IMG/VR virus record: IMGVR_UViG_3300030060_001224
Location: 1 to 44,788 of that record
Origin: a virus
DNA: 44,788 bases
Direction: 5' to 3' (one strand)
Shown here: positions 5,916 to 21,779 of the stretch, piece after piece
Layout: each line of letters opens with the position of its first letter
Position numbering within the stretch: position 1 is the first letter of the stretch
Notes under the pieces: generated by a model
What the model saw: the letters and a program-made list of their open reading frames with translations, nothing else
Told to the model about the DNA's origin: nothing
The model's database searches: none
Program-made: the position numbers and the translations under genes

Positions 5916-6014
5916 GCCTAGGGACTCCTTTAGGCTTTCGTACAATTAATTTGTGGATCTTGCAACTGGTGCCTAGGTCGAACAGAAAAACATGTGAATA
6001 AATATACCCATCTA

Positions 6015-6029
6015 GGGCGGGTGGGTGGG
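6015..6029 (+). promoter_or_regulatory. Four-tract G-quadruplex motif
   Basis: GGGCGGGTGGGTGGG: four runs of three G with single-base loops, the loop pattern known to give very stable parallel G-quadruplexes. It lies in the divergent control region and is followed at once by the self-complementary GGGCGCGCGCCC. The G-run is on the plus strand, so it would be in the RNA only for rightward transcription. Confidence 0.75.
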
Positions 6030-6038
6030 CGCGCGCCC
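6027..6038. repeat. Perfect 12-base GC palindrome
   Basis: GGGCGCGCGCCC is fully self-complementary, overlaps the last G-tract of the quadruplex motif and is followed by GCGCCC and a run of six A. There is no T-run on the plus side, so it is not a standard rightward terminator. It could cruciform or compete with the quadruplex. Confidence 0.6.
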
Positions 6039-6215
6039 GCGCCCAAAAAATCAAGGGGGTGGGGCGTCAGTAATTTGACATGTTGCCCGATATTGTCCCA
6101 AGTAACCCTAATATTATTACGCCTGGCCTGGGCGACAGGGTAATTTTATTACAAGATTTTTTGTGCTGGTGTCAAATTGATGACAAGTAAAATGTATTTT
6201 ATTTATTGTTTGGTG

Positions 6216-6244
6216 TTGCATGTTGTCTCATTTTAGCTTAATGT
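6216..6244 (+). promoter_or_regulatory. Sigma70-like promoter of the first early gene
   Basis: TTGCAT, 17 bases, TAATGT. The -35 side continues as TTGCATGTTGTCTC, closely matching TTGCATACTGTCTC of the promoter at 11000. The -10 hexamer lies inside the left arm of the inverted repeat 6237-6258. The start codon at 6319 is about 75 bases further on. Confidence 0.55.
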
Positions 6245-6258
6245 CATAAGACATTAAG
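6237..6258. promoter_or_regulatory. Perfect inverted repeat, possible operator
   Basis: CTTAATGTC, four-base spacer ATAA, GACATTAAG: nine-base perfect arms centred on the -10 region of the promoter at 6216. The symmetry and position fit binding of a dimeric repressor or activator. No phage repressor is obvious; the ribbon-helix-helix protein at 14798 and the AlpA-like protein at 21763 are candidates. Confidence 0.5.
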
Positions 6259-6318
6259 GGAAATCGGACGGCAATAGCCAAGCGACCCCAAAGCAACCCT
6301 AGTCTATTGGAGGACTAA

Positions 6319-6612
6319 ATGACTAAATCACAATTTGCTCGTCGCCATACATATGAGGCATTAACAGAAGCGGAACAGATTGCTTTCTGTAAAGAGATGC
6401 TGACGCTATGGCACGAGACATTGGTTGGTCTACATGGCCTAAAGGATCAACACGATTTCGCAAAAAGCCAAGCTAAGTTTTGGAATTTGGAGCGGAAGGA
6501 TGTTGAGAGACACGCCATTGAGGCGGGTCTCGCATATCACGATCCGCAAGAGTTTGAATATGAGGCGAAAGCGGCATACACGCAAATTCGCCAGATGTTC
6601 AAGTGGAAGTGA
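6319..6612 (+). CDS. Early hypothetical protein (97 aa)
   Basis: First early gene, ATG at 6319 preceded by the shared leader TTGGAGGACTAA. The protein is mostly helical and highly charged, with aromatic residues (TLWHETLVGLHGLKDQ; AKFWNLERKDVERHAIEAG; TQIRQMFKWK). No domain recognised. It is its own transcription unit: promoter at 6216 and terminator at 6621. Host-takeover function would be typical for the position but is inference. Confidence 0.75.
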   Translation: MTKSQFARRHTYEALTEAEQIAFCKEMLTLWHETLVGLHGLKDQHDFAKSQAKFWNLERKDVERHAIEAGLAYHDPQEFEYEAKAAYTQIRQMFKWK

Positions 6613-6620
6613 TAAACCTA

Positions 6621-6650
6621 GGCGGCGGCATTGTGCCGCCGCCGCTTTTT
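6621..6650 (+). terminator. Intrinsic terminator after the first early gene
   Basis: GGCGGCGGCA, loop TTG, TGCCGCCGCC, then GCTTTTT. Ten perfect base pairs. The T-run abuts the ribosome binding site of the next gene, leaving no room for a promoter between them, so readthrough must feed the next gene. Confidence 0.85.
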
Positions 6651-6663
6651 GGAGGACTACAAA

Positions 6664-6933
6664 ATGACTGGAAAGAAAAATCCCTTCGGGAAAACTGCCG
6701 ACAAAAACAAGCCATATGCTGTTTACAGCAACGGCGATTTTTTGTGGAAAGTTTTGAAAACCTACAAAGTAGCAGACAATGAACAGAACGATCCTTACGC
6801 GAGATGGTTTTGTTTCGTAACGTCAAGCCTATGTCCTGAAGGCGAATATGGCGATACTTACGCGCTGGACGTAAAGCAATACGGCCAGCTAATGCAATGC
6901 ACGCCAGAATGGCGTGACGCATACAATGCGTAG
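6664..6933 (+). CDS. Early hypothetical protein (89 aa)
   Basis: Start at ATG 6664 behind GGAGGACTAC of the shared leader; an earlier in-frame TTG lies in the terminator loop and is rejected. The protein begins TGKKNPFGKTADKNKPYAVY and has a central WKVLKTYKVADNEQNDPYARWFC segment; it looks like a small single-domain beta-rich protein. No family recognised. Expression seems to depend on readthrough of the terminator just upstream. Confidence 0.75.
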   Translation: MTGKKNPFGKTADKNKPYAVYSNGDFLWKVLKTYKVADNEQNDPYARWFCFVTSSLCPEGEYGDTYALDVKQYGQLMQCTPEWRDAYNA

Positions 6934-7114
6934 TATCAAATATGGCATGGGGCTAGCAGGATTATTCCTGCTAGCGTCTGCCCATCTGATCTTCGGGCTG
7001 GCGGCGCCGCTCGATGATCTAGGCCATCAGGTCATGCGACTAGCCATGATCCTGCACGCTGGCGCAGCCTTCTACTGCGCTATCTTACTCCATATCATGC
7101 GGAGGCGGCGTTAG
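6926..7114 (+). CDS. Small two-helix membrane protein
   Basis: 62 residues from ATG 6926, which overlaps the previous stop by eight bases; a GTG at 6914 would add four residues. Two hydrophobic segments, about GMGLAGLFLLASAHLIFGLA and AMILHAGAAFYCAILLHIM, with a short loop and a basic tail RRRR. The stop codon lies in the loop of the following terminator. Candidates are a holin-like or superinfection-exclusion protein, but it is in the early block far from the lysozyme, so no function is assigned. Confidence 0.65.
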   Translation: MRSIKYGMGLAGLFLLASAHLIFGLAAPLDDLGHQVMRLAMILHAGAAFYCAILLHIMRRRR

Positions 7115-7128
7115 CCGCCTCCCTTTTT
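7101..7128 (+). terminator. Intrinsic terminator overlapping a stop codon
   Basis: GGAGGCGGC, loop GTTA, GCCGCCTCC, then CTTTTT. Nine perfect pairs; the TAG stop of the membrane protein gene is in the loop and first pair, so the last arginine codons form the left arm. Confidence 0.85.
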
Positions 7129-7146
7129 ATTTGCCTGGATTTTGGA

Positions 7147-7170
7147 TGCTATAGTCTTACGCCTATAGCA
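7147..7170. promoter_or_regulatory. Inverted repeat with TATAGT core
   Basis: TGCTATAG, eight-base spacer, CTATAGCA: perfect eight-base arms. The left arm reads as an extended -10 (TGCTATAGT) and may be a weak rightward promoter; the symmetry may instead be an operator. It follows the terminator at 7101. Confidence 0.35.
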
Positions 7171-7204
7171 GAGGCGGCGCCGGCCTAGTCCTTGTCATCA
7201 CCAG

Positions 7205-7249
7205 TCCCGAATCCCGAAACCCGAACCCGACTCGCCTGCCGAACCCGAC
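7205..7249. repeat. CCCGAA repeat array 1
   Basis: Starts CAGTCCCGAATCCCGAA and continues with degenerate CCCGAAC/CCCGACT units (about six). It lies between the terminator at 7101 and the promoter at 7272. The right flank (TTTCGTTTGTTTTTTTCTTGTGCC) closely resembles the right flank of array 2, so array plus promoter look like one duplicated module. The minus strand carries regularly spaced GGG tracts. Confidence 0.75.
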
Positions 7250-7271
7250 TAGGATTTCGTTTGTTTTTTTC

Positions 7272-7299
7272 TTGTGCCCGAAGGTCATGCGTGTATACT
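7272..7299 (+). promoter_or_regulatory. Sigma70-like promoter
   Basis: TTGTGC, 16 bases, TATACT, with a T-rich upstream stretch. Drives the gene at 7380 after an untranslated leader of about 75 bases. Confidence 0.5.
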
Positions 7300-7365
7300 C
7301 AGATTGTGGAGTCGCGATGACCGCCGACCAGTGATGCGAACAGCACTCCACATTTTTCAACCTGT

Positions 7366-7375
7366 CTATGGAGGA
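7366..7375 (+). promoter_or_regulatory. Leader element paired with a complementary trailer at 7651-7660
   Basis: CTATGGAGGA contains the ribosome binding site of the 7380 gene. The exact reverse complement TCCTCCATAG occurs at 7651-7660, directly after that gene's stop and before its terminator. In one mRNA the two could pair over ten bases and hide the ribosome binding site. This is a prediction from sequence only. Confidence 0.45.
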
Positions 7376-7379
7376 CAAA

Positions 7380-7649
7380 ATGGAAGTAACAATAATCGCA
7401 GATAACGGACACGCATGGGGCATCGTATCAGTAGAACAGCTCAAGGCAGCGCGCCTGTCTATTGATGACATTAGCGATTTCTCATACAAGACGCCTAATG
7501 GTGAGATACTAGCATTGGAGGAGGATTGCGATCTTCCAAAGTATCTAAATAAACTGGAGAGTATGGGCACGACGTTTAGTCTTCGTGACAATTACATTCC
7601 AGACGAGGATCATCCAGACAACCCTAGGACATGGCCTAGGATTAGATAG
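7380..7649 (+). CDS. Early hypothetical protein (89 aa)
   Basis: ATG 7380 is preceded by GGAGGACAAA; the upstream ATG at 7368 is part of the ribosome binding site and is rejected. The product (EVTIIADNGHAWGIVSVEQL, DDISDFSYKTPNGE, a C-terminal PDEDHPDNPRTWPR) looks like a small beta-alpha acidic domain. No family recognised. It is a single-gene transcription unit with its own promoter (7272) and terminator (7666). Confidence 0.75.
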   Translation: MEVTIIADNGHAWGIVSVEQLKAARLSIDDISDFSYKTPNGEILALEEDCDLPKYLNKLESMGTTFSLRDNYIPDEDHPDNPRTWPRIR

Positions 7650-7665
7650 TTCCTCCATAGGACGG

Positions 7666-7693
7666 AAAGAGCGGCAGAGATGCCGCTCTTTTT
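7666..7693 (+). terminator. Intrinsic terminator
   Basis: AAAGAGCGGCA, loop GAGA, TGCCGCTCTTT, T-run. Eleven perfect pairs. The anti-leader trailer TCCTCCATAG lies just before it. Confidence 0.9.
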
Positions 7694-7695
7694 GT

Positions 7696-7723
7696 TTGTG
7701 TTTAGTTTGTTATTCGATATAAT
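7696..7723 (+). promoter_or_regulatory. Sigma70-like promoter
   Basis: TTGTGT, 16 bases, consensus TATAAT. It lies immediately after the terminator T-run and about 35 bases before the start at 7757, which carries the full shared leader ATGGAGGACTAAATG. Confidence 0.6.
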
Positions 7724-7756
7724 GAGGACATCAACAACAGTCTAATGGAGGACTAA

Positions 7757-8125
7757 ATGACTATGCTTAAATTTAGAAGCAAAGAGTTTACGCGGATGAT
7801 TCAGCATATGCTGAAGAACGAGCGCAAGATTCCTTATGTGGACAAGACGACAGATGAATATGGTCTGTGGCTTGTTAAGGATGAGGGCATCTATGTGATG
7901 TCGCCATCGCCAGAGCGTGACATTGTCAGTAAGAACAAATGCCATGTTATCTATGCGCGAGGATATTCTCCTCGCGTTAAGGATTTATGGGAAAAGACTC
8001 ACGCTGTGAGCGGAGACGATTTCGCAGAGTTTATCCCATTGTCTGAACAACAGATGAAACGAGTCGCATTGTTCGGTGAATTGGACATTCGTCTCACAGA
8101 AACGGAGGTATCTATCTATGCCTAA
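7757..8125 (+). CDS. DUF3085-like hypothetical protein
   Basis: 122 residues, ATG preceded by TGGAGGACTAA. The segment YGLWLVKDEGIYVMS, followed by HVIYARGYSP and a later SGDDFAEFIPL, is the pattern I associate with DUF3085 (small uncharacterised proteins of phages, plasmids and proteobacteria). First gene of a two-gene unit with the Api92-like gene, which it overlaps by eight bases. Function unknown; the family assignment is from memory of the motif. Confidence 0.6.
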   Translation: MTMLKFRSKEFTRMIQHMLKNERKIPYVDKTTDEYGLWLVKDEGIYVMSPSPERDIVSKNKCHVIYARGYSPRVKDLWEKTHAVSGDDFAEFIPLSEQQMKRVALFGELDIRLTETEVSIYA

Positions 8126-8681
8126 TTGGTGTCAGAATGTAATCTATGTATCCCATGAGGACGAAAACAAGATGATGGCGTTGAAAGACGCCATCCTCAA
8201 TGGCGAGATGTGCGCCCACATCAAACCCATGCCGGATGCGCTGAAGGGCATCACATCTGGCGCGACTACGATTGATGGGGAAACCCATCGCTTGTGGCGC
8301 AACGATGAGGACGGCAATGCCGTCGCCATCCCCCAAGCAGAGTTAGACGAGATGCGCGTCGATTACGGCACAGCATCTTGGTATGATTGGTGCTGTGATA
8401 ATTGGGGCACGAAATGGGATATCTGTTCCCCATGGGATACAGACGATATATATCATGCGGACGATGGGACGGGGACATATGTGTTCAAGTTTGATACCGC
8501 ATGGTCGCCACCAATCCCTGTATATGATGCGATGATTAAACAAGGATTCAATCTGGTCGCGCATTATGTGGAATATGGTTGCGGATACCATGGCGAATAT
8601 TCCAAGGATGGTGACTATTACCATAATGAAATACAGGATGGAGATGAGATAGACGAACATCTCCAATCTGAATACGCCTAA
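8118..8681 (+). CDS. Api92/DUF1281-like protein
   Basis: 187 residues. The start at 8118 gives the classical N-terminus MPNWCQN, follows GGAGGT and overlaps the previous stop. The N-terminal MPNWCxN, a WYDWCCDNWGTKWD core, FDTAWSPPIPVYDAM, and the later HYVEYGCGYHGEY are hallmarks of the Api92-like ferredoxin-fold family (DUF1281) found on phages and conjugative plasmids. The molecular role is not known. The carboxyl end is strongly acidic (DGDEIDEHLQSEYA). Followed by an anti-leader hairpin and a strong terminator. Confidence 0.75.
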   Translation: MPNWCQNVIYVSHEDENKMMALKDAILNGEMCAHIKPMPDALKGITSGATTIDGETHRLWRNDEDGNAVAIPQAELDEMRVDYGTASWYDWCCDNWGTKWDICSPWDTDDIYHADDGTGTYVFKFDTAWSPPIPVYDAMIKQGFNLVAHYVEYGCGYHGEYSKDGDYYHNEIQDGDEIDEHLQSEYA

Positions 8682-8760
8682 CAATGGGGAGCGCGGCAGG
8701 TGTCGCGCTCCTTCCTTCTGACTGGTGACCAGTCTCGAGACCATTCCATTAGTTATTAGT

Positions 8761-8778
8761 CGTAGTCCTCCAACTACG
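8761..8778 (+). promoter_or_regulatory. Hairpin exposing an anti-leader sequence
   Basis: CGTAGT, loop CCTCCA, ACTACG. Bases 8763-8772 (TAGTCCTCCA) are the exact reverse complement of TGGAGGACTA, the leader of the genes at 7757, 6319 and 8960. It lies in the 3-prime untranslated region of the 7757-8681 unit, before the terminator. Could pair with the ribosome binding site of its own or sister mRNAs. Confidence 0.45.
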
Positions 8779-8783
8779 GACGG

Positions 8784-8812
8784 CGCCCTGGGCCATGCCC
8801 AGGGCGTTTTTT
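8784..8812 (+). terminator. Strong intrinsic terminator
   Basis: CGCCCTGGGC, loop CAT, GCCCAGGGCG, six T. Ten perfect GC-rich pairs. Confidence 0.92.
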
Positions 8813-8817
8813 ATCAG

Positions 8818-8898
8818 TCCCGAATCCCGAATCCCGAATCCCGAATCCCGAAAGGCTGCGCCCCGAACCCTGGCGCCTACCTGGTCCCGAACCCGAAT
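8818..8898. repeat. TCCCGAA repeat array 2
   Basis: Five perfect tandem TCCCGAA heptamers (8818-8852), then diverged units up to CCCGAACCCGAATAT. Placed between the terminator at 8784 and the promoter at 8905, like array 1. On the minus strand the core reads GGG separated by four-base ATTC loops, i.e. a quadruplex-capable tract on the template strand. Confidence 0.9.
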
Positions 8899-8904
8899 AT
8901 ATGT

Positions 8905-8933
8905 TTGTTTTTTGCTTGTTCCTGGTGTACAAT
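8905..8933 (+). promoter_or_regulatory. Sigma70-like promoter
   Basis: TTGTTT, 17 bases, TACAAT. The surrounding TTTGTTTTTTGCTTGTTCC resembles the sequence at the promoter 7272. The start codon at 8960 follows with leader ATGGAGGACTAATC. Confidence 0.5.
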
Positions 8934-8959
8934 TTAATTGTTCATATGGAGGACTAATC

Positions 8960-9559
8960 ATGCGTATATCAAATGGGAGCGGAAAACTGCAAGATATCCG
9001 CTCGTTAAACACGAACACGTTAACTAATGAGTTTTGCAAAGCCATGTATAACTCGAGCGCGGATGATATCATCTGTCGCAAATGCTATTCCATGAACATG
9101 TTGAACGGACTCCGCAAGAATTGCGCTCCGTCATGGCAGGAAAACAGCGATATTCTTTCCGGCGGATTGATTCCGCCACACATGTTGCCGACAATCTTGG
9201 ATGCGTTTTTCCGTTTCTCATCTCATGGTGAGCTAATCAACATGACCATGTTGGAAAATTTCCACAATATCACGTTGCACAACCCACATTGCTCTTTTGC
9301 CTTGTGGACAAAGCGCAAGAATTTTATCCGCAAGTTTTACAGCCAACACGAAAAGCCGGCCAATCTGATTCTGATTTACAGCAACCCGCGCATTGACGCG
9401 GTGATGAATCATCCGCCGGAGTTTTTTGATCGGACGTTTAACAATGTATCAAAGGGCAGTGATGTTGCACAAAATTGCACCGGACAAAAATGTCGTGATT
9501 GCTTGCTATGCTACAAGGCAGGTAATGGCGTGACTCAAATTGTGGAGGCAGTGAAATGA
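8960..9559 (+). CDS. Cysteine-rich GP88-like protein
   Basis: 199 residues, ATG at 8960 behind TGGAGGACTA; longer readings run through the repeat array and are rejected. The sequence holds DIICRKCYSMNMLNGLRKNC near residues 35-55, a middle LWTKRKNFIRKFY, LILIYSNPRID, and a C-terminal cluster CTGQKCRDCLLCYK (C-x4-C-x2-C-x2-C). This layout (early Cys pair, R and N rich helix, late Cys cluster) resembles the phage gene-product-88 family, whose function is unknown. The Cys clusters could bind zinc or an iron-sulphur cluster. Coupled (ATGA) to the next 46-residue gene. Confidence 0.6.
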   Translation: MRISNGSGKLQDIRSLNTNTLTNEFCKAMYNSSADDIICRKCYSMNMLNGLRKNCAPSWQENSDILSGGLIPPHMLPTILDAFFRFSSHGELINMTMLENFHNITLHNPHCSFALWTKRKNFIRKFYSQHEKPANLILIYSNPRIDAVMNHPPEFFDRTFNNVSKGSDVAQNCTGQKCRDCLLCYKAGNGVTQIVEAVK

Positions 9560-9696
9560 CCAAAGAAGATATCGTCATGCACATAAAGCATATCGTCGTC
9601 GAACAATGCGAAAAGGAACCAGAGGACCGAGATTGGTTCGCAGCCTTCGGCGCCCTAATCGACAAGATCGAGGACAGCATAAAGGAGGAGGCCTAG
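9556..9696 (+). CDS. Small acidic hypothetical protein (46 aa)
   Basis: ATGA overlap with the previous stop. Begins MTKEDIVMHIKHIVVEQCEK and ends DKIEDSIKEEA: a probably all-helical acidic peptide. Its TAG stop lies in a palindrome that also ends the converging nuclease gene and forms the terminator. Function unknown; could act with the GP88-like protein encoded just before. Confidence 0.6.
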   Translation: MTKEDIVMHIKHIVVEQCEKEPEDRDWFAAFGALIDKIEDSIKEEA

Positions 9697-9706
9697 GCCT
9701 CCTTTT
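9686..9706. terminator. Palindromic terminator shared by converging genes
   Basis: AGGAGGCCTAGGCCTCCT is an 18-base perfect palindrome followed by TTTTC. Its central CCTAGG supplies a TAG stop to both strands (plus stop 9694-9696, minus stop 9695-9693), so both converging genes end inside the terminator. Confidence 0.75.
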
Positions 9707-10217
9707 CTTTTGCCTCGAGCCCAGGTTGCTGTGACCCTGGTACTGGCGCCCCAGTCCCTGGGTGGCCTAGGGCAAGATCCCCGAATCCCGAACCCGAATC
9801 CCGAAGTCCCGATAGCACTGACTCTAAGTGCCGGACCCCCGACTCCCGAACCGCGTCCCATAAATCCCCGAATCCCGAACCCCGAAACTCGGCCCCAGCT
9901 GCCAGTCCCGACTTGGCTACGTCCAAGGCTCTCGCGCCCCGAAACAAAAATAGGTCGCCCGAAGAGAGGTGCTTAACCAAGATGAATGACAAGCCGCCCG
10001 AACGTGAATACGCGGTATTCCACGCAATTTGCTGTGGAGATATTCTGACAGTATTGTTTTTTGTTGTTTTTAATTCCAACCAAAACACAAGTCCGGACCA
10101 TGCTACATGTACGTCAGGCACGCCACCGCCATGGCGGTTTTCGATTCGGGTTGTATAGCAGTTACTCGGCAGGTTCCTGCGGATGGTGTTCCAAAAGTTC
10201 GCCTCCGGTGTCGGCAT
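9693..10217 (-). CDS. VRR-NUC family nuclease with repeat-derived C-terminus
   Basis: 174 residues from ATG 10217 with GGAGGT upstream; overlaps the small terminase gene by 56 bases. Residues 1-100 match the VRR-NUC (PD-(D/E)XK) pattern of phage nucleases: E at the N-terminal helix (EANFWNTIRR), then GGGVPDVHVAW (catalytic D), LVFWLELKTTKNN (E-x-K), QQIAWNTAYSRSGG and FILVK. VRR-NUC proteins are structure-specific nucleases, often Holliday-junction or flap cutters. From about residue 110 the protein is glycine/serine/aspartate-rich (EFRGSGFGDLW, GLRDSGSGFGD) because the reading frame runs through TTCGGGA repeats. That tail is probably not part of the fold. Confidence 0.75.
   Translation of the reverse strand: MPTPEANFWNTIRRNLPSNCYTTRIENRHGGGVPDVHVAWSGLVFWLELKTTKNNTVRISPQQIAWNTAYSRSGGLSFILVKHLSSGDLFLFRGARALDVAKSGLAAGAEFRGSGFGDLWDAVRESGVRHLESVLSGLRDSGSGFGDLALGHPGTGAPVPGSQQPGLEAKEKEA
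9777..9966. repeat. CCCGAA repeat array 3, inside the nuclease gene
   Basis: About a dozen degenerate CCCGAA units (for example ATCCCCGAATCCCGAACCCG at 9776-9795, and ATCCCCGAATCCCGAACCCC near 9864-9883), interspersed with unrelated GC-rich sequence. Unlike arrays 1 and 2 this one lies in a coding region, in the C-terminal third of the VRR-NUC gene. Confidence 0.8.
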
Positions 10218-10719
10218 CAACTACCTCCGTATACTCACCCTCAATGAACGCCTGCGGATACTCACGCCGCAACTGATTCAATCGAGAGGTGATCTCTTCT
10301 CGAGACAGATCGTCTAGCTGATGAATGTTCTCTCGCCTGTCTACAGTCAAGCCACCAAGTGCAGATCGAATCTTCTCGGCATTGATTGCCGCTGAAAACT
10401 GACCTGCCTCCTCGGCGCCAGCCGATAATTCATGAAGACGTTTGAGCTGACCCATTACGGTCACGCCATAACGACGTTCTCGCTCTTCACGAAGTTCTTG
10501 TATGTAGTCGGTGAGGTGAGGAAACTTTTTGCCTGCCAATAAGTGCCCAGCAATAGAGGCTGCTGAGTTAGATGCATACCCTGCCTTTCGGGCGCATTCG
10601 GCGTTGGAATATATACCTTCAACATAGTGCCGAGCGAACTCACGCTGACGCTGGGTCAATTTGCGTCCAGTCTCGGCCTCAATGTCATCTGCAAGAATGT
10701 CTGTCTTCTTGTTACACAT
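10162..10719 (-). CDS. terS: Terminase small subunit
   Basis: 185 residues. The N-terminal part, LTQRQREFARHYVEGIYSNA followed by ECARKAGYASNSAASIAGHL, is the typical Terminase_2 helix-turn-helix that recognises the packaging site; the rest has coiled-coil helices (LREERERRYGVTVMGQLKRL) for oligomerisation and an acidic tail (EGEYTEVVDADTGGELLEHH). It is not next to TerL but about 6.4 kb away, in a two-gene minus-strand unit with the VRR-NUC nuclease. The start ATG lacks a strong ribosome binding site; expression probably comes from the control region 10720-11057. Confidence 0.88.
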   Translation of the reverse strand: MCNKKTDILADDIEAETGRKLTQRQREFARHYVEGIYSNAECARKAGYASNSAASIAGHLLAGKKFPHLTDYIQELREERERRYGVTVMGQLKRLHELSAGAEEAGQFSAAINAEKIRSALGGLTVDRRENIHQLDDLSREEITSRLNQLRREYPQAFIEGEYTEVVDADTGGELLEHHPQEPAE

Positions 10720-10817
10720 GTCACACTACTACCCCATAAAAACGTTGTTTTGAAGCCTTTTTGAATCTAGGCCTTTTACCAGGTTTTTGAGATGTTGTCC
10801 TATAGAGTCCCCATACT

Positions 10818-10917
10818 GTGACAAGTGTGCCAAAAATGCTTAGAAGTGTGCCAAGGAAAAACCCTTACTCCGCCTTGTGTTTTGAGGTTCTTGTCACACT
10901 TGTCACACTTGTCACAC
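10818..10917. repeat. Iteron-like TTGTCACAC repeats
   Basis: Three perfect tandem copies of the nine-mer TTGTCACAC at 10891-10917, and an inverted copy GTGACAAGTGTG at 10818-10829; partial copies follow (AGTGTGCCAA near 10844, TGTCACAC near 10720 and CGTGACAAACGAGAC near 10970). Just downstream is the AT-rich TTTGAAAAATTTTCAAAA. Repeats plus AT-rich tract between diverging genes look like an origin or the binding site of a regulator. Confidence 0.75.
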
Positions 10918-10999
10918 CCCATTTGAAAAATTTTCAAAAACTTTTTTTCAGCAAAAATACTGTACCAAACGTGACAAACGAGACATGGTTCTTATGTTG

Positions 11000-11027
11000 T
11001 TGCATACTGTCTCGCTCTGTGTATAAT
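11000..11027 (+). promoter_or_regulatory. Sigma70 promoter of the 11-15 kb operon
   Basis: TTGCAT, 16 bases, TATAAT. The -35 context TTGCATACTGTCTC parallels the promoter at 6216. The leader TTGGAGGACGTT precedes the ATG at 11058. It appears to drive the whole overlapping gene run to the terminator at 15440. Confidence 0.65.
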
Positions 11028-14678: not shown

Positions 14679-14877
14679 GGCCTACACTAGGTATGGAGAG
14701 TCGGTCTTTGACGATGACGAAAACCGTGAAGCACAGCGTCAGGAAAGAAATCGCAAGGCGCGAGAGCGGTATCACGCAAAAAAGAAAGGTAAGACCAATG
14801 GCAGCAAAACGCGGAAGACCAACAGTCGAAAAAAAGGCGGCGTTTCGCAACGTGGCCGTGCCGATGGAAATCTATGA
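14425..14877 (+). CDS. Hypothetical basic protein (150 aa)
   Basis: ATG 14425 with AAGGAG upstream. N-terminal MYLGNQTLLVNDALNLLRGK and DMRMIANLVATADELGLEYD look folded; the middle has FGKAYTRYGESVFDDDENRE; the end is a lysine/arginine helix (RQERNRKARERYHAKKKGKT) that may bind nucleic acid. It overlaps both neighbours (254 and 80 bases). No family recognised. Confidence 0.6.
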   Translation: MYLGNQTLLVNDALNLLRGKLVRFILEDGDMRMIANLVATADELGLEYDQKSMTYRDRKAEEARSKGRAQLAKELEPGLNALFGKAYTRYGESVFDDDENREAQRQERNRKARERYHAKKKGKTNGSKTRKTNSRKKGGVSQRGRADGNL

Positions 14878-14980
14878 GATGATCCGCGAGCTGTCGAAGG
14901 AAGAAGACCGGACAATCGCAAGGCAACTAGCGGTCCTGATCAAGGACGCATACCAACAGACAAGGGAGAAGTCTGCATGA
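14798..14980 (+). CDS. Ribbon-helix-helix DNA-binding protein
   Basis: 60 residues. MAAKRGRPTVEKK gives an AT-hook-like RGRP arm, then a short strand (FRNVAVPMEIYEMIRELSK) and a helix (EEDRTIARQLAVLIKDAY) in the Arc/MetJ ribbon-helix-helix order. Such dimers bind inverted or tandem repeats as repressors. Start at ATG 14798 with AAAGG upstream, nested in the previous gene. A candidate binder for the inverted repeats at 6237 or 7147, by inference only. Confidence 0.65.
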   Translation: MAAKRGRPTVEKKAAFRNVAVPMEIYEMIRELSKEEDRTIARQLAVLIKDAYQQTREKSA

Positions 14981-17052: not shown

Positions 17053-17267
17053 TCCGCCGCCGACTCTGACTCAAGAACTGATTTCTTTGCCGAAAGCGAA
17101 ACGACATTGTCTCTACCTAACCCCCGTAAAAACTTTTCAGCGATGTCTGGTGTCAAGCCGGTCAGTTTCCTGAAACGGTCAACGGCCTGTTCTAATGTCA
17201 GGCCACCTTTCTTGTAGTCGATCAAAACGTCTATACTGCCTGCGATTTTGGGGTCAGCTTCAGCCAT
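17049..17267 (-). CDS. Hypothetical protein (72 aa)
   Basis: Overlaps the end of the helicase gene by 37 bases. Helical: AGSIDVLIDYKKGGLTLEQA, VDRFRKLTGLTPDIAEKFLR. Common as a short gene after SNF2-like helicases in phages, but without a family that I can name. Could be an accessory factor of the helicase, by position. Confidence 0.65.
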   Translation of the reverse strand: MAEADPKIAGSIDVLIDYKKGGLTLEQAVDRFRKLTGLTPDIAEKFLRGLGRDNVVSLSAKKSVLESESAAE

Positions 17268-18718
17268 TCTCTAGCCTCCTCTCCTAATACTCGTGCACCT
17301 ATATCAATCTTATCACGAAGGGCTTTGACGATCTTCTCGTCAATCGTCCCGTCTGCGATCAAGTCAATGTAGGTGACAGGGTTTTTCTGACCAATACGAT
17401 GACAGCGATCCTCGGACTGGATCCGAGTTTCAAGGTTGAAGTCATTAGCATAGTAGATCACTGTGTTGGCCTCGGTCAGCGTGAGGCCATAACCAGCCGT
17501 GGCTGGATTCGCTACGAAGAATCTTGCGTTGCCACCTTGGAATCTGTCGATGGCGATCTGCCGGTCCTGATCAGATGTGTCGCCGTAATAAGAGACCACC
17601 GAGTCCGAGCCGTGTACGTTAGCCAGTTCATTACGAATGTTGACGATGTCATATCGAAAGCGTGACCAGATAATAATCTTACCGGACACTTCTTCAATAC
17701 AATCCATGAGCGCGGACAGACGTTGAGTGGGCAACTGAAGCAGTTCACCATCATCTGTTTTGACATGACCCGACAACACCTGTTGTAAGCGCAGCATCTG
17801 CGTAATCATCTGCGGTGTACTGACGAGCTTGTCGTCTTGTAACAATGTGATGGCAAACTCCTGCAACTCTTTATACATGCGGATTTGTTCCATGGTCAGA
17901 GTCACATGACGCACGGTGTAGGTTTTTTCCGGCAGGTCAAGACAGTCTTTCTTCAAGACTCGATATGTGTGTGGGTCAATACGCATGGTCAGCTCCTCCA
18001 GATTTTTGTAGCCAAGAATTTGTTGAAAGCTGTGTGCGCCCATGGTGCGCTTTTGCAGAACAGCGAAGCGCCCTTGAAACGCATAGTAGGAGTCGTACCC
18101 CAAGATGCTGGGGTCAAGAAACTGAAACTGTGAGTACAGGTCCATTGGTGACTTTGTAACGGGCGACCCTGTCAACAGTCTTCTGTACTTGAACTTCTCC
18201 GCAATCTTGAGTAAGGACTTGGTGCGCTTGGCCTTATGGTTCTTGATGGTTGTTGATTCATCAATGGCTATGAGGCCAAAGCGCCCGAACTTCTGAGCCA
18301 TCCACTCCCCCGCCTTCTTGCCTTTGGCTGACGAGAAAGCCTCCACATTCATAACGAATATCTTTACGCCAAGGTCTCGGCTATTGAAGAACGCCCGAAC
18401 CTTATCGCGGTACGTCTTGGTGTGATTTGCCTGCCAATGGCACACGGTATGCGCGATCTCATCTGAGAAATGTTCTGGAATCTCCTTGTTGATCCAGTTG
18501 CGGTACACGCCCTTGGGTGCAATGATCAAAGCAAACTCAACCCGATCTAACGGGTTGATTGCCTGCGACCCAAGGTAGGCAATGCTGTCGATCAAGACCT
18601 TTGATTTACCAGTACCCATCTCCATAAAGAACCCGAAGGATTCCTTGTCAACGCTACGATCCAACGCCTCAACCTGGTGTGCATATGGTTTCGTTTTGAT
18701 TTTGTAGTTGACTTGCAT
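17231..18718 (-). CDS. SNF2-like superfamily 2 helicase
   Basis: 495 residues from ATG 18718, behind GGGAGGACATGG (a version of the early leader); longer readings start upstream in the promoter. Walker A MEMGTGKS at about 32-39, motif Ia IIAPKGV, motif II LIAIDEST (DEST instead of DEAH), motif III LLTGSPV, then GKIIIWSRF, VANPATAGYGLTLTEANTVI and motif VI QSEDRCHRIGQ. This is the SWI2/SNF2 layout. Phage copies probably act as DNA translocases during replication or repair. It heads a minus-strand operon of six genes ending at 15464. Confidence 0.92.
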   Translation of the reverse strand: MQVNYKIKTKPYAHQVEALDRSVDKESFGFFMEMGTGKSKVLIDSIAYLGSQAINPLDRVEFALIIAPKGVYRNWINKEIPEHFSDEIAHTVCHWQANHTKTYRDKVRAFFNSRDLGVKIFVMNVEAFSSAKGKKAGEWMAQKFGRFGLIAIDESTTIKNHKAKRTKSLLKIAEKFKYRRLLTGSPVTKSPMDLYSQFQFLDPSILGYDSYYAFQGRFAVLQKRTMGAHSFQQILGYKNLEELTMRIDPHTYRVLKKDCLDLPEKTYTVRHVTLTMEQIRMYKELQEFAITLLQDDKLVSTPQMITQMLRLQQVLSGHVKTDDGELLQLPTQRLSALMDCIEEVSGKIIIWSRFRYDIVNIRNELANVHGSDSVVSYYGDTSDQDRQIAIDRFQGGNARFFVANPATAGYGLTLTEANTVIYYANDFNLETRIQSEDRCHRIGQKNPVTYIDLIADGTIDEKIVKALRDKIDIGARVLGEEAREWLKLTPKSQAV

Positions 18719-18740
18719 CCATGTCCTCCCATATTGTCTA

Positions 18741-18769
18741 AACATAGGCTTACGGTTTAGTTCCGTCAA
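18741..18769 (-). promoter_or_regulatory. Sigma70-like promoter of the helicase operon
   Basis: On the minus strand TTGACG, 17 bases, TATGTT, about 23 bases before the ATG at 18718. The -35 is near consensus. Confidence 0.55.
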
Positions 18770-20233: not shown

Positions 20234-20246
20234 CGCGGAGTAAGTG

Positions 20247-21779
20247 ATGACATTAGTTGACCGGTTCGCTGCGGCCTTTGAAGGCTCCAGCGTTGCACAT
20301 GGTCAAACAACAGTAGGTGACGTTAGGAAGAACGGGAAGACAGAGGCAAAGAGTTTCATCGTCCGAGAGCCGTTGACCAAGCATTTGATCAACAGCCATT
20401 TGCAGGGCGAACATGGGGTTGGTGCGATTCCGATCAACAGTCAGAACATGTGCAAGTTTGGTGCATTAGACATTGATACATATCCGGTTGACCACCTAGC
20501 CATCTTGAAGAAGTGCCGCCGTTTTAAGCTACCACTCGTTGTTTGCCGTTCTAAATCAGGCGGGGCACATCTGTTCTTGTTCATGCAAGATTGGATCAGT
20601 GCAACAGATATGCGTGACCATCTGATGGAGTTCGCTGCCGTACTCGGTTACGGCGGTTGTGAAGTGTTTCCAAAACAAAACAAGATTCTTGCCGAGCGTG
20701 GTGATGTCGGCAACTTCATTAATCTGCCGTACTTCTCGGCGGATAACACATTACGTTATGCGATAAATCAGAAGGGGGATGAGCTATCACTTGAGTCATT
20801 TCTTAAAGAAATCGAGCGTAGAAAGGTCACGTTAGAGGATCTTCGTAAGTTAGATTTTTCAACCGATGATGATGAGCTTCGTGAAATGCCGCCGTGCTTG
20901 CGGATCATGTTCGCTACCTCTGTGCCAGACGGCACCAGAAACAAAGTCATGTTTCATGCGGCGGTGGCCGCGAAAATGATGAACCCAGATTCATGGGAAC
21001 GCACCCTTGAATCGTGGAACCAGAAGTATTGCAAACCATCATTGCCTGCCAGTGAGATCGTCACGATCCAGAACCAGCACAAGAAGAAGGACTATGGGTA
21101 TCTTTGCAAGGACGAACCTATGGGCAGTCATTGTGATAAGACGGCCTGCCGGCAAGCCAAGTATGGCATAGGCAAGAACGGCTCGATGCCTGGTATCACC
21201 GGACTCACGATACAAAAGTCGGAGCCGCGCCTGTACTTTCTGGATGTTGATGGCAAGCGACTGGAGTTGTCCACCGAACAGTTACAAATGCCTTTGCAGT
21301 TTCAACGTGCGTGTATGGAGCAGCTGGATGTCATGCCGCCAATTATGAAGGCGCCGGACTGGCAGGAGTATGTGAACCGGATGCTTGAGACGGCTACTCA
21401 CATTGAGGTGCCCAAAGAACTGACGATCAAAGGTCAGTTTGAAGAACTGGTCGAGGTTTACTGTACCGGCAGGATTCGGGCGCGGTCACCGCAAGAGATG
21501 ACGATTGGCAAGCCGTGGACAGAGAATGACATGACGATGTTCACGATCAAAGGATTGATGGAGTTTCTACGCAATCGCGGATTCCGCGAACTGAAGCGTC
21601 CACAAATCCAGCAGCGCCTAAAGGATATGAACGGTGGGCATGACTGCAATACCACCTACAAGTTTAAAGACGAAGATACCGGTCAATGGAAGAATCTTCG
21701 CGTCTGGTTTGTACCAGAGTTTGACAACACCGAAATCGACCTACCAACAGAGGAGATAGAAAATGACATACCCTTCTGA
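20247..21779 (+). CDS. Archaeo-eukaryotic primase of TOTE type
   Basis: 510 residues, ATG 20247 after GCGGAG (a GTG lies just before). The N-terminal domain has the AEP catalytic signature: KFGALDIDTYP with Asp75 and Asp77, SKSGGAHLFLF with His108, and the family-typical EVFPKQNKI plus GNFINLPYF. This is the layout of the TOTE-conflict-system primase clade, which is common in phages. The middle part has a CxxxC-type cluster near DEPMGSHCDKTACRQ. The C-terminal half probably contacts helicase or DNA. It ends ENDIPF, an SSB-type tip. No replicative DnaB helicase is seen; the SNF2-like or UvrD-like helicase may serve. Confidence 0.82.
   Translation: MTLVDRFAAAFEGSSVAHGQTTVGDVRKNGKTEAKSFIVREPLTKHLINSHLQGEHGVGAIPINSQNMCKFGALDIDTYPVDHLAILKKCRRFKLPLVVCRSKSGGAHLFLFMQDWISATDMRDHLMEFAAVLGYGGCEVFPKQNKILAERGDVGNFINLPYFSADNTLRYAINQKGDELSLESFLKEIERRKVTLEDLRKLDFSTDDDELREMPPCLRIMFATSVPDGTRNKVMFHAAVAAKMMNPDSWERTLESWNQKYCKPSLPASEIVTIQNQHKKKDYGYLCKDEPMGSHCDKTACRQAKYGIGKNGSMPGITGLTIQKSEPRLYFLDVDGKRLELSTEQLQMPLQFQRACMEQLDVMPPIMKAPDWQEYVNRMLETATHIEVPKELTIKGQFEELVEVYCTGRIRARSPQEMTIGKPWTENDMTMFTIKGLMEFLRNRGFRELKRPQIQQRLKDMNGGHDCNTTYKFKDEDTGQWKNLRVWFVPEFDNTEIDLPTEEIENDIPF

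Follow-up and report, generated by a model that had tools for sequence, protein, structure and literature searches.

The 44,788-nucleotide stretch analysed here (the window; positions 1 to 44,788 of IMG/VR virus record IMGVR_UViG_3300030060_001224) carries, in its early region, three arrays of short direct repeats built on a CCCGA core. Array 1 (7205-7249, + strand), identified from pattern counts, Tandem Repeats Finder (TRF) and homologous arrays in relatives, comprises CCCGA(A) units; array 2 (8818-8898, + strand), identified from pattern counts and TRF, comprises five perfect TCCCGAA units followed by spaced cores; and array 3 (9779-9949, + strand), identified from pattern counts, comprises degenerate CCCGA units overlapping the codons of a resolvase-like gene on the other strand. 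TRF provided an independent call of the arrays, and chance is excluded as their origin. Allowing up to two mismatches, the window has 11 matches to TCCCGAATCCCGAA where 0.25 would be expected; no shuffle reached this count, and the matches fall exclusively on the + strand (7205-7225, 8818-8852 and 9779-9886). Single TCCCGAA heptamers number 14, compared with an expectation of 4.7, and all but two, at 6685 (- strand) and 16104 (+ strand), lie within the arrays. The initial annotation of this DNA, made from the letters alone, had described heptamer arrays at three early-region sites and none elsewhere in the window. Their restriction to three sites is borne out across the window and the remainder of the 56,358-base viral record that contains it (the ends of which overlap by ~72 bases), a remainder in which no exact two-copy match was found. 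The unit, however, is less a strict heptamer than CCCGA(A) joined by short linkers that vary in length, and the third array, which had been placed at 9777-9966, is present but reaches its 3' limit near 9949.

Terminator-like sites are more frequent in this region than expected (13 versus 4.1), with one hairpin 5' of each array. A hairpin with a T-run precedes array 1 (7101-7122, + strand), a 12-bp hairpin with a T-run lies immediately 5' of array 2 (8782-8808, + strand), and a hairpin scan placed a further terminator 5' of array 3 (9683-9706, + strand). On their other side, arrays 1 and 2 share the right flank TTTGTTTTTT...CTTGT, as noted initially, and each is followed by a T-rich promoter-like segment recognised from the sequence. 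At site 1 (7260-7299, + strand) this segment is conserved in relatives and includes a -10 element, TATACT, at 7294-7299; the site is atypical in that ~45 bp separate the array end from the -10, above the family mode, and in that an extra CCCGAA core (7277-7282) lies within the promoter spacer. At site 2 (8903-8933, + strand), the last core lies 31 bp before the -10 element TACAAT (8928-8933), and a -10 is found in 25 of 26 distinct homologous upstream regions, compared with 14.7 in shuffles. Neither promoter was called by a strict sigma-70 scan, and both are assigned because their -10 elements are conserved in relatives; the proposed position of arrays 1 and 2 between a terminator and a promoter is upheld by the hairpins and, despite the silent scan, supported by -10 conservation. 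A rightward terminator and promoter-like segment at 7660-7697 lacks an array, indicating that arrays are not obligatory at every terminator/promoter junction.

The gene 3' of array 1 is a small early gene from the open reading frame (ORF) list (o93; 7380-7649, + strand) with homologues in relatives, and that of site 2 is a GP88-like gene (o199; 8960-9559, + strand) matching PF17338 slightly below cutoff (E 1.3e-4), with array-flanked homologues in relatives. No + strand promoter accompanies array 3, which overlaps the 3' portion of a gene on the minus strand (9696-10217) encoding a Holliday-junction-resolvase-like PD-(D/E)XK protein, assigned by alignment, weak profile matches and a structural model. 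The gene for the terminase small subunit (TerS; phrog_51) lies at 10162-10719 on the minus strand. The leader that separates the site-1 promoter from its gene (7306-7350) is stem-loop-like (GGAGT...ACTCC), is near-identical in several relatives and also precedes different first genes among them; no Rfam family scored above its gathering score for this leader or over 6000-11000.

Relatives were collected with TerS as the anchor: a first search returned 363, of which 80 were kept, and diverged TerS queries added more. The arrays are a feature of a large, mostly uncultured phage family, occupying up to three early-gene sites per genome. Where sufficient flank was available, CCCGA arrays, without exception on the same strand, typically lay near -3000, -1400 and -400 to -260 as counted from the 3' end of TerS, and relatives without CCCGA carried CGCAGG, CGCAGAG or CGCAAAG words at homologous places. 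Automatic word calling assigned 113 loci to CCCGA, 83 to CGCAR, 32 to neither and 42 as too short, counts that are not independent because the loci are related by descent; several of the loci without a called word are composite repeats still holding CCGCAGGGC. The arrays of three large CCCGA genomes (55-58 kb) are confined to the early region. A search of related phages had been suggested initially; it recovered homologous arrays at the same places, the opposite of the absence from close relatives that would have counted against the reading, and some relatives hold the same sites with a different word. Neighbouring clustered units were oriented + versus - at 1309 to 3 for CCCGA and 472 to 7 for CGCAR, with unit spacing of 5-9 nt, mostly 5-8. 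Six other viral contigs with (TCCCGAA)3 (L006, L008, L010, L013, L016 and L018) resemble the window in DNA sequence through the repeat only. Five loci with near-identical TerS (L096, L306, L308, L312 and L318) possess two longer units (GCGCGTGGGGCCGCAGGGCAA...) in place of array 3, as well as palindromes of the CCTCGCT...CTCGG type 3' of TerS. An AEP-TOTE primase-like protein (20244-21779 in the window) and a SNF2-family helicase (17231-18769) were also present in nearly all array-bearing genomes examined.

Comparison with one close relative, L064, revealed how the word changes. The identity of this locus to the window is 97% for TerL, 96% for the adjoining ORF, 78% for the GP88-like gene and 77% for TerS; the order of these genes and arrays is preserved, yet each array is built of CGCAGG. 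The switch affects all sites of a genome together, even at 97% TerL identity, and word classes are interleaved in the TerS tree. Every word fits C-S-C-R-R-R, or almost so, which is a description and no proof of shared descent. L064 and a second locus, L224, combine TerL identities of 97-98% to the window with only 77% in TerS, placing a recombination border between the TerL gene and the early region.

Sequence variation within array 3 is unevenly distributed. Among related pairs of the CCCGA class, 6.2% of core sites differed, against 17.7% of linker and 15.1% of remaining positions, and among CGCAR pairs the corresponding values were 2.4%, 8.8% and 14.3%; since pairs are non-independent and aligners favour matching cores, this contrast is supporting evidence only. 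The resolvase-like protein gives weak Hjc/RecU/VRR_NUC profile matches, and its predicted structure, confident to ~residue 140 and disordered thereafter, resembles Hjc/RecU Holliday junction resolvases. Its nuclease core is conserved while its C-terminus follows the array word, reading SGFGDLW..RESG-like in CCCGA phages and ..ALRP.. or LRAC in CGCAG phages, which argues that maintenance of the word takes place at the nucleic-acid level. Here the nucleotide word overrides protein sequence at a gene end, a caution for annotation, and SGFG/RESG-type peptides here belong to a real reading frame. At sites 1 and 2 the arrays are further coupled to promoters. A -10 element was found within the scanned range for about half of the arrays, and its distance from the last core peaks at 31-33 bp for CCCGA and 42 bp for CGCAR, approximately one helical turn apart. 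This preferred distance supports the earlier suggestion that array and promoter form one module.

Among the explanations that might account for these features, a role as structural or RNA elements, such as G-quadruplex (G4) or C-rich (rut-like) insulators halting read-through between transcription units, would fit the strict hairpin terminators found upstream of arrays in relatives (70 of 210 and 32 of 111 arrays; 0 in shuffles). It would also fit the minus-strand G4 motifs found in 100 of 109 CCCGA loci; of the eight G4-type motifs in the genome itself, seven map to the arrays, on the minus strand, where quadruplexes had been anticipated. As the function of the arrays, however, G4 formation fails in the CGCAR classes, in which none of 82 loci has a motif on either strand, and the GA of the CCCGA core, irrelevant to a G4, is nonetheless kept. 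A Rho/rut reading was likewise rejected because CGCAR words are not C-rich and G-poor, and CGCAGG differs from a rut site in having a G-rich coding strand; a structural role is, overall, very unlikely. Recognition of the arrays by TerS as packaging (pac-like) sites initially appeared attractive, given that the arrays lie within ~3.4 kb of terS and that TerS varies most in its recognition helix (22% identical between L045 and L062, versus 87% elsewhere). Across relatives, though, the recognition residues do not match the array word: the helices of L458 (CCCGA) and L364 (CGCAG) differ by D/E alone, the pair L445/L062 also contradicts TerS binding, helices diverge widely inside the CCCGA class, and a sliding-window contrast of TerS does not single out the helix for a class effect. 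Moreover, G005 encodes TerS at ~45 kb, ~25 kb away, and still holds a degenerate array at its resolvase-like gene. We consider TerS, useful as the survey anchor, a highly improbable binder. Its helix (residues ~49-66), hypervariable although the rest of the protein is conserved, does not track the word and may follow another packaging site.

A further possibility is that a host protein (an activator, nucleoid or insulator protein) docks at the arrays, with host shifts causing the word to switch. The promoters look host-type, separate phage lineages use separate words, and binding of a phage protein to the arrays has candidate status only. However, the 97% TerL identity of L064 and the window suggests the same or a close host, yet their words differ, and we view host docking as unlikely. 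Neutral or selfish expansion of short repeats in tolerant spots, such as terminator-promoter gaps and gene ends, would be consistent with the variation in unit number between close relatives and with the expansion of similar heptamers in many bacterial intergenic regions. It accounts poorly for strict polarity at conserved sites, variable linkers with conserved cores, the use of one word at all sites of a genome with joint switching, and a preferred promoter distance; we hold it to be distinctly unlikely, and the selfish invasion raised in the initial annotation is disfavoured by the polarity, the conserved sites, the core conservation and the joint switching.

The arrays are real, conserved and functional in appearance, and a mechanism may be inferred with moderate confidence. 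They are probably read by some sequence-specific DNA-binding protein, of phage or host, and binding of a regulator, as first proposed, is judged to be the best explanation, as a prediction. In the reading that we favour, to which we assign a probability of roughly 0.4, the arrays would be promoter-linked tandem operators for an oligomerising phage DNA-binding protein. Each CCCGA or CGCA[G/A] unit would constitute one weak site, with several neighbours enabling cooperative occupancy. The strips at sites 1 and 2 would end just 5' of an early promoter, at a distance from the -10 such that RNA polymerase would be contacted or excluded by the bound protein. This protein may also be loaded at array 3, which lacks its own promoter and sits where transcripts converge, to allow looping, bridging or road-blocking, for instance; drift in the specificity of the protein would lead to the replacement of all arrays of a genome together.

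The leading candidate for this binder, suggested by co-variation and by analogy, is an Arc-like ribbon-helix-helix (RHH) protein encoded at 14798-14980 (+ strand), which matches PF07878 above cutoff and has an Arc-like predicted fold; a PDB sequence search with the RHH profile returned nothing significant. Members of this RHH family were found in 15 of 15 large array-bearing genomes or contigs examined; none was found in G005, which retains one degenerate array only. The residue at the start of helix 2 tracks the word, being Met in every CGCAG-class sequence and Ile (as in the window), Phe, Pro or Ala in the CCCGA class. When this discriminating column was masked, the CCCGA sequences L065, L068 and L070, which carry Ile or Phe at the position, fell inside a CGCAG clade (containing group 99/99), which suggests at least two matched changes of residue and word in a tree of 37 columns only. 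Loci L521-L531, retrieved with a Met-type RHH query and thus enriched for Met by the search itself, carried CGCAG arrays wherever the region was covered.

A number of observations weigh against this assignment or against operator function more generally. CGCAAAG phages carry Ile at the helix-2 start, as CCCGA phages do; the beta-strand residues expected to read the bases do not differ between CCCGA and CGCAGG phages; and class-discriminating columns occur at similar rates in the nuclease (2/101), UvrD (8/489) and RHH (1/49) proteins. RHH relatives also exist in array-less phages, no RHH protein was found in G031, an array-bearing 21.9-kb contig, and the window genome has no CCCGA array at its RHH gene (14798). 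To these must be added the shared descent of the loci counted above and the scarcity of promoters at array 3, where a -10 was found in 1 of 81 CCCGA-class arrays. Binding is itself a prediction, as are the identity of the binder and the sign of regulation.

A broader proposal, which we regard as speculative and rather unlikely, is that this widespread phage family runs a self-contained operator code, in which many-copy short-word arrays at a few fixed sites are read by a phage RHH protein with a word preference that has switched repeatedly. If so, each switch would rewrite all arrays, including the coding tail of the resolvase, rendering the channels of related phages mutually blind; such separate channels could be regulatory, or could serve segregation or exclusion. 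If the favoured operator reading is right, these abundant uncultured phages would offer matched pairs of protein and array, a series made by nature, for following how a tandem-array-binding protein changes its specificity.

No report of such arrays in phages emerged from the literature searched (few searches, open-licence papers only), although several known systems share some of their properties. By sequence type, the nearest are bacterial heptamers, namely the TCCCGAA arrays and the related GGGNATC class published for Xanthomonas and Nostoc (PMC4692102). Like the phage arrays, these are G/C-rich short tandem units, mostly intergenic; they are also G4-capable, a capacity that the CCCGA class of the phages has and the CGCAR classes lack. 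The initial annotation mentioned such repeats from Xanthomonadaceae, where (TCCCGAA)4 is indeed common, as well as being scattered in other phyla. Its suggestion of a xanthomonad host finds no support: the nearest named relatives by TerL are marine or lake phages, with 023Pt_psg01 (61%) closest, followed by HTVC027P (58%) and HTVC023P (57%), both SAR11 phages, and a tail-fibre segment shows 77% DNA identity to HMO-2011 of SAR116. Bacterial arrays, furthermore, keep a strict period of 7 and are dispersed on both strands, whereas phage arrays are few, polar and variable in linker, with a word that changes between relatives. Bacterial TCCCGAA arrays were observed in unrelated phyla (L103, L110, L130 and L154), some adjoining other period-7 repeats, e.g. 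ATCCCCA or TCTCGCT.

With pac sites bound by TerS, the phage arrays share repeated sites near the small terminase gene; they differ in that the TerS helix does not track the word and an array persists where TerS has moved. The Arc repressor of phage P22, which acts at one palindromic operator, has the RHH fold predicted for the candidate protein and differs from the many-copy mode of the arrays. The closest functional analogue, on which the proposed RHH binding is modelled, is the RHH protein omega/ParB of pSM19035, which binds 7-10 consecutive 7-bp repeats at promoters, four contiguous repeats being needed for full activity (PMC9499535). Unlike in pSM19035, linkers vary in the phages, spacing is less regular, which itself counts against an operator role, and units take one orientation only; the phage also has one array without a promoter and none at its own RHH gene, and no ParA partner was noticed among the part of the proteome scanned. 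In both systems, however, short non-palindromic direct repeats form arrays at few promoters (sites 1 and 2 only in the phage), the element also encodes an RHH protein, and single sites would be expected to be weak and arrays strong.

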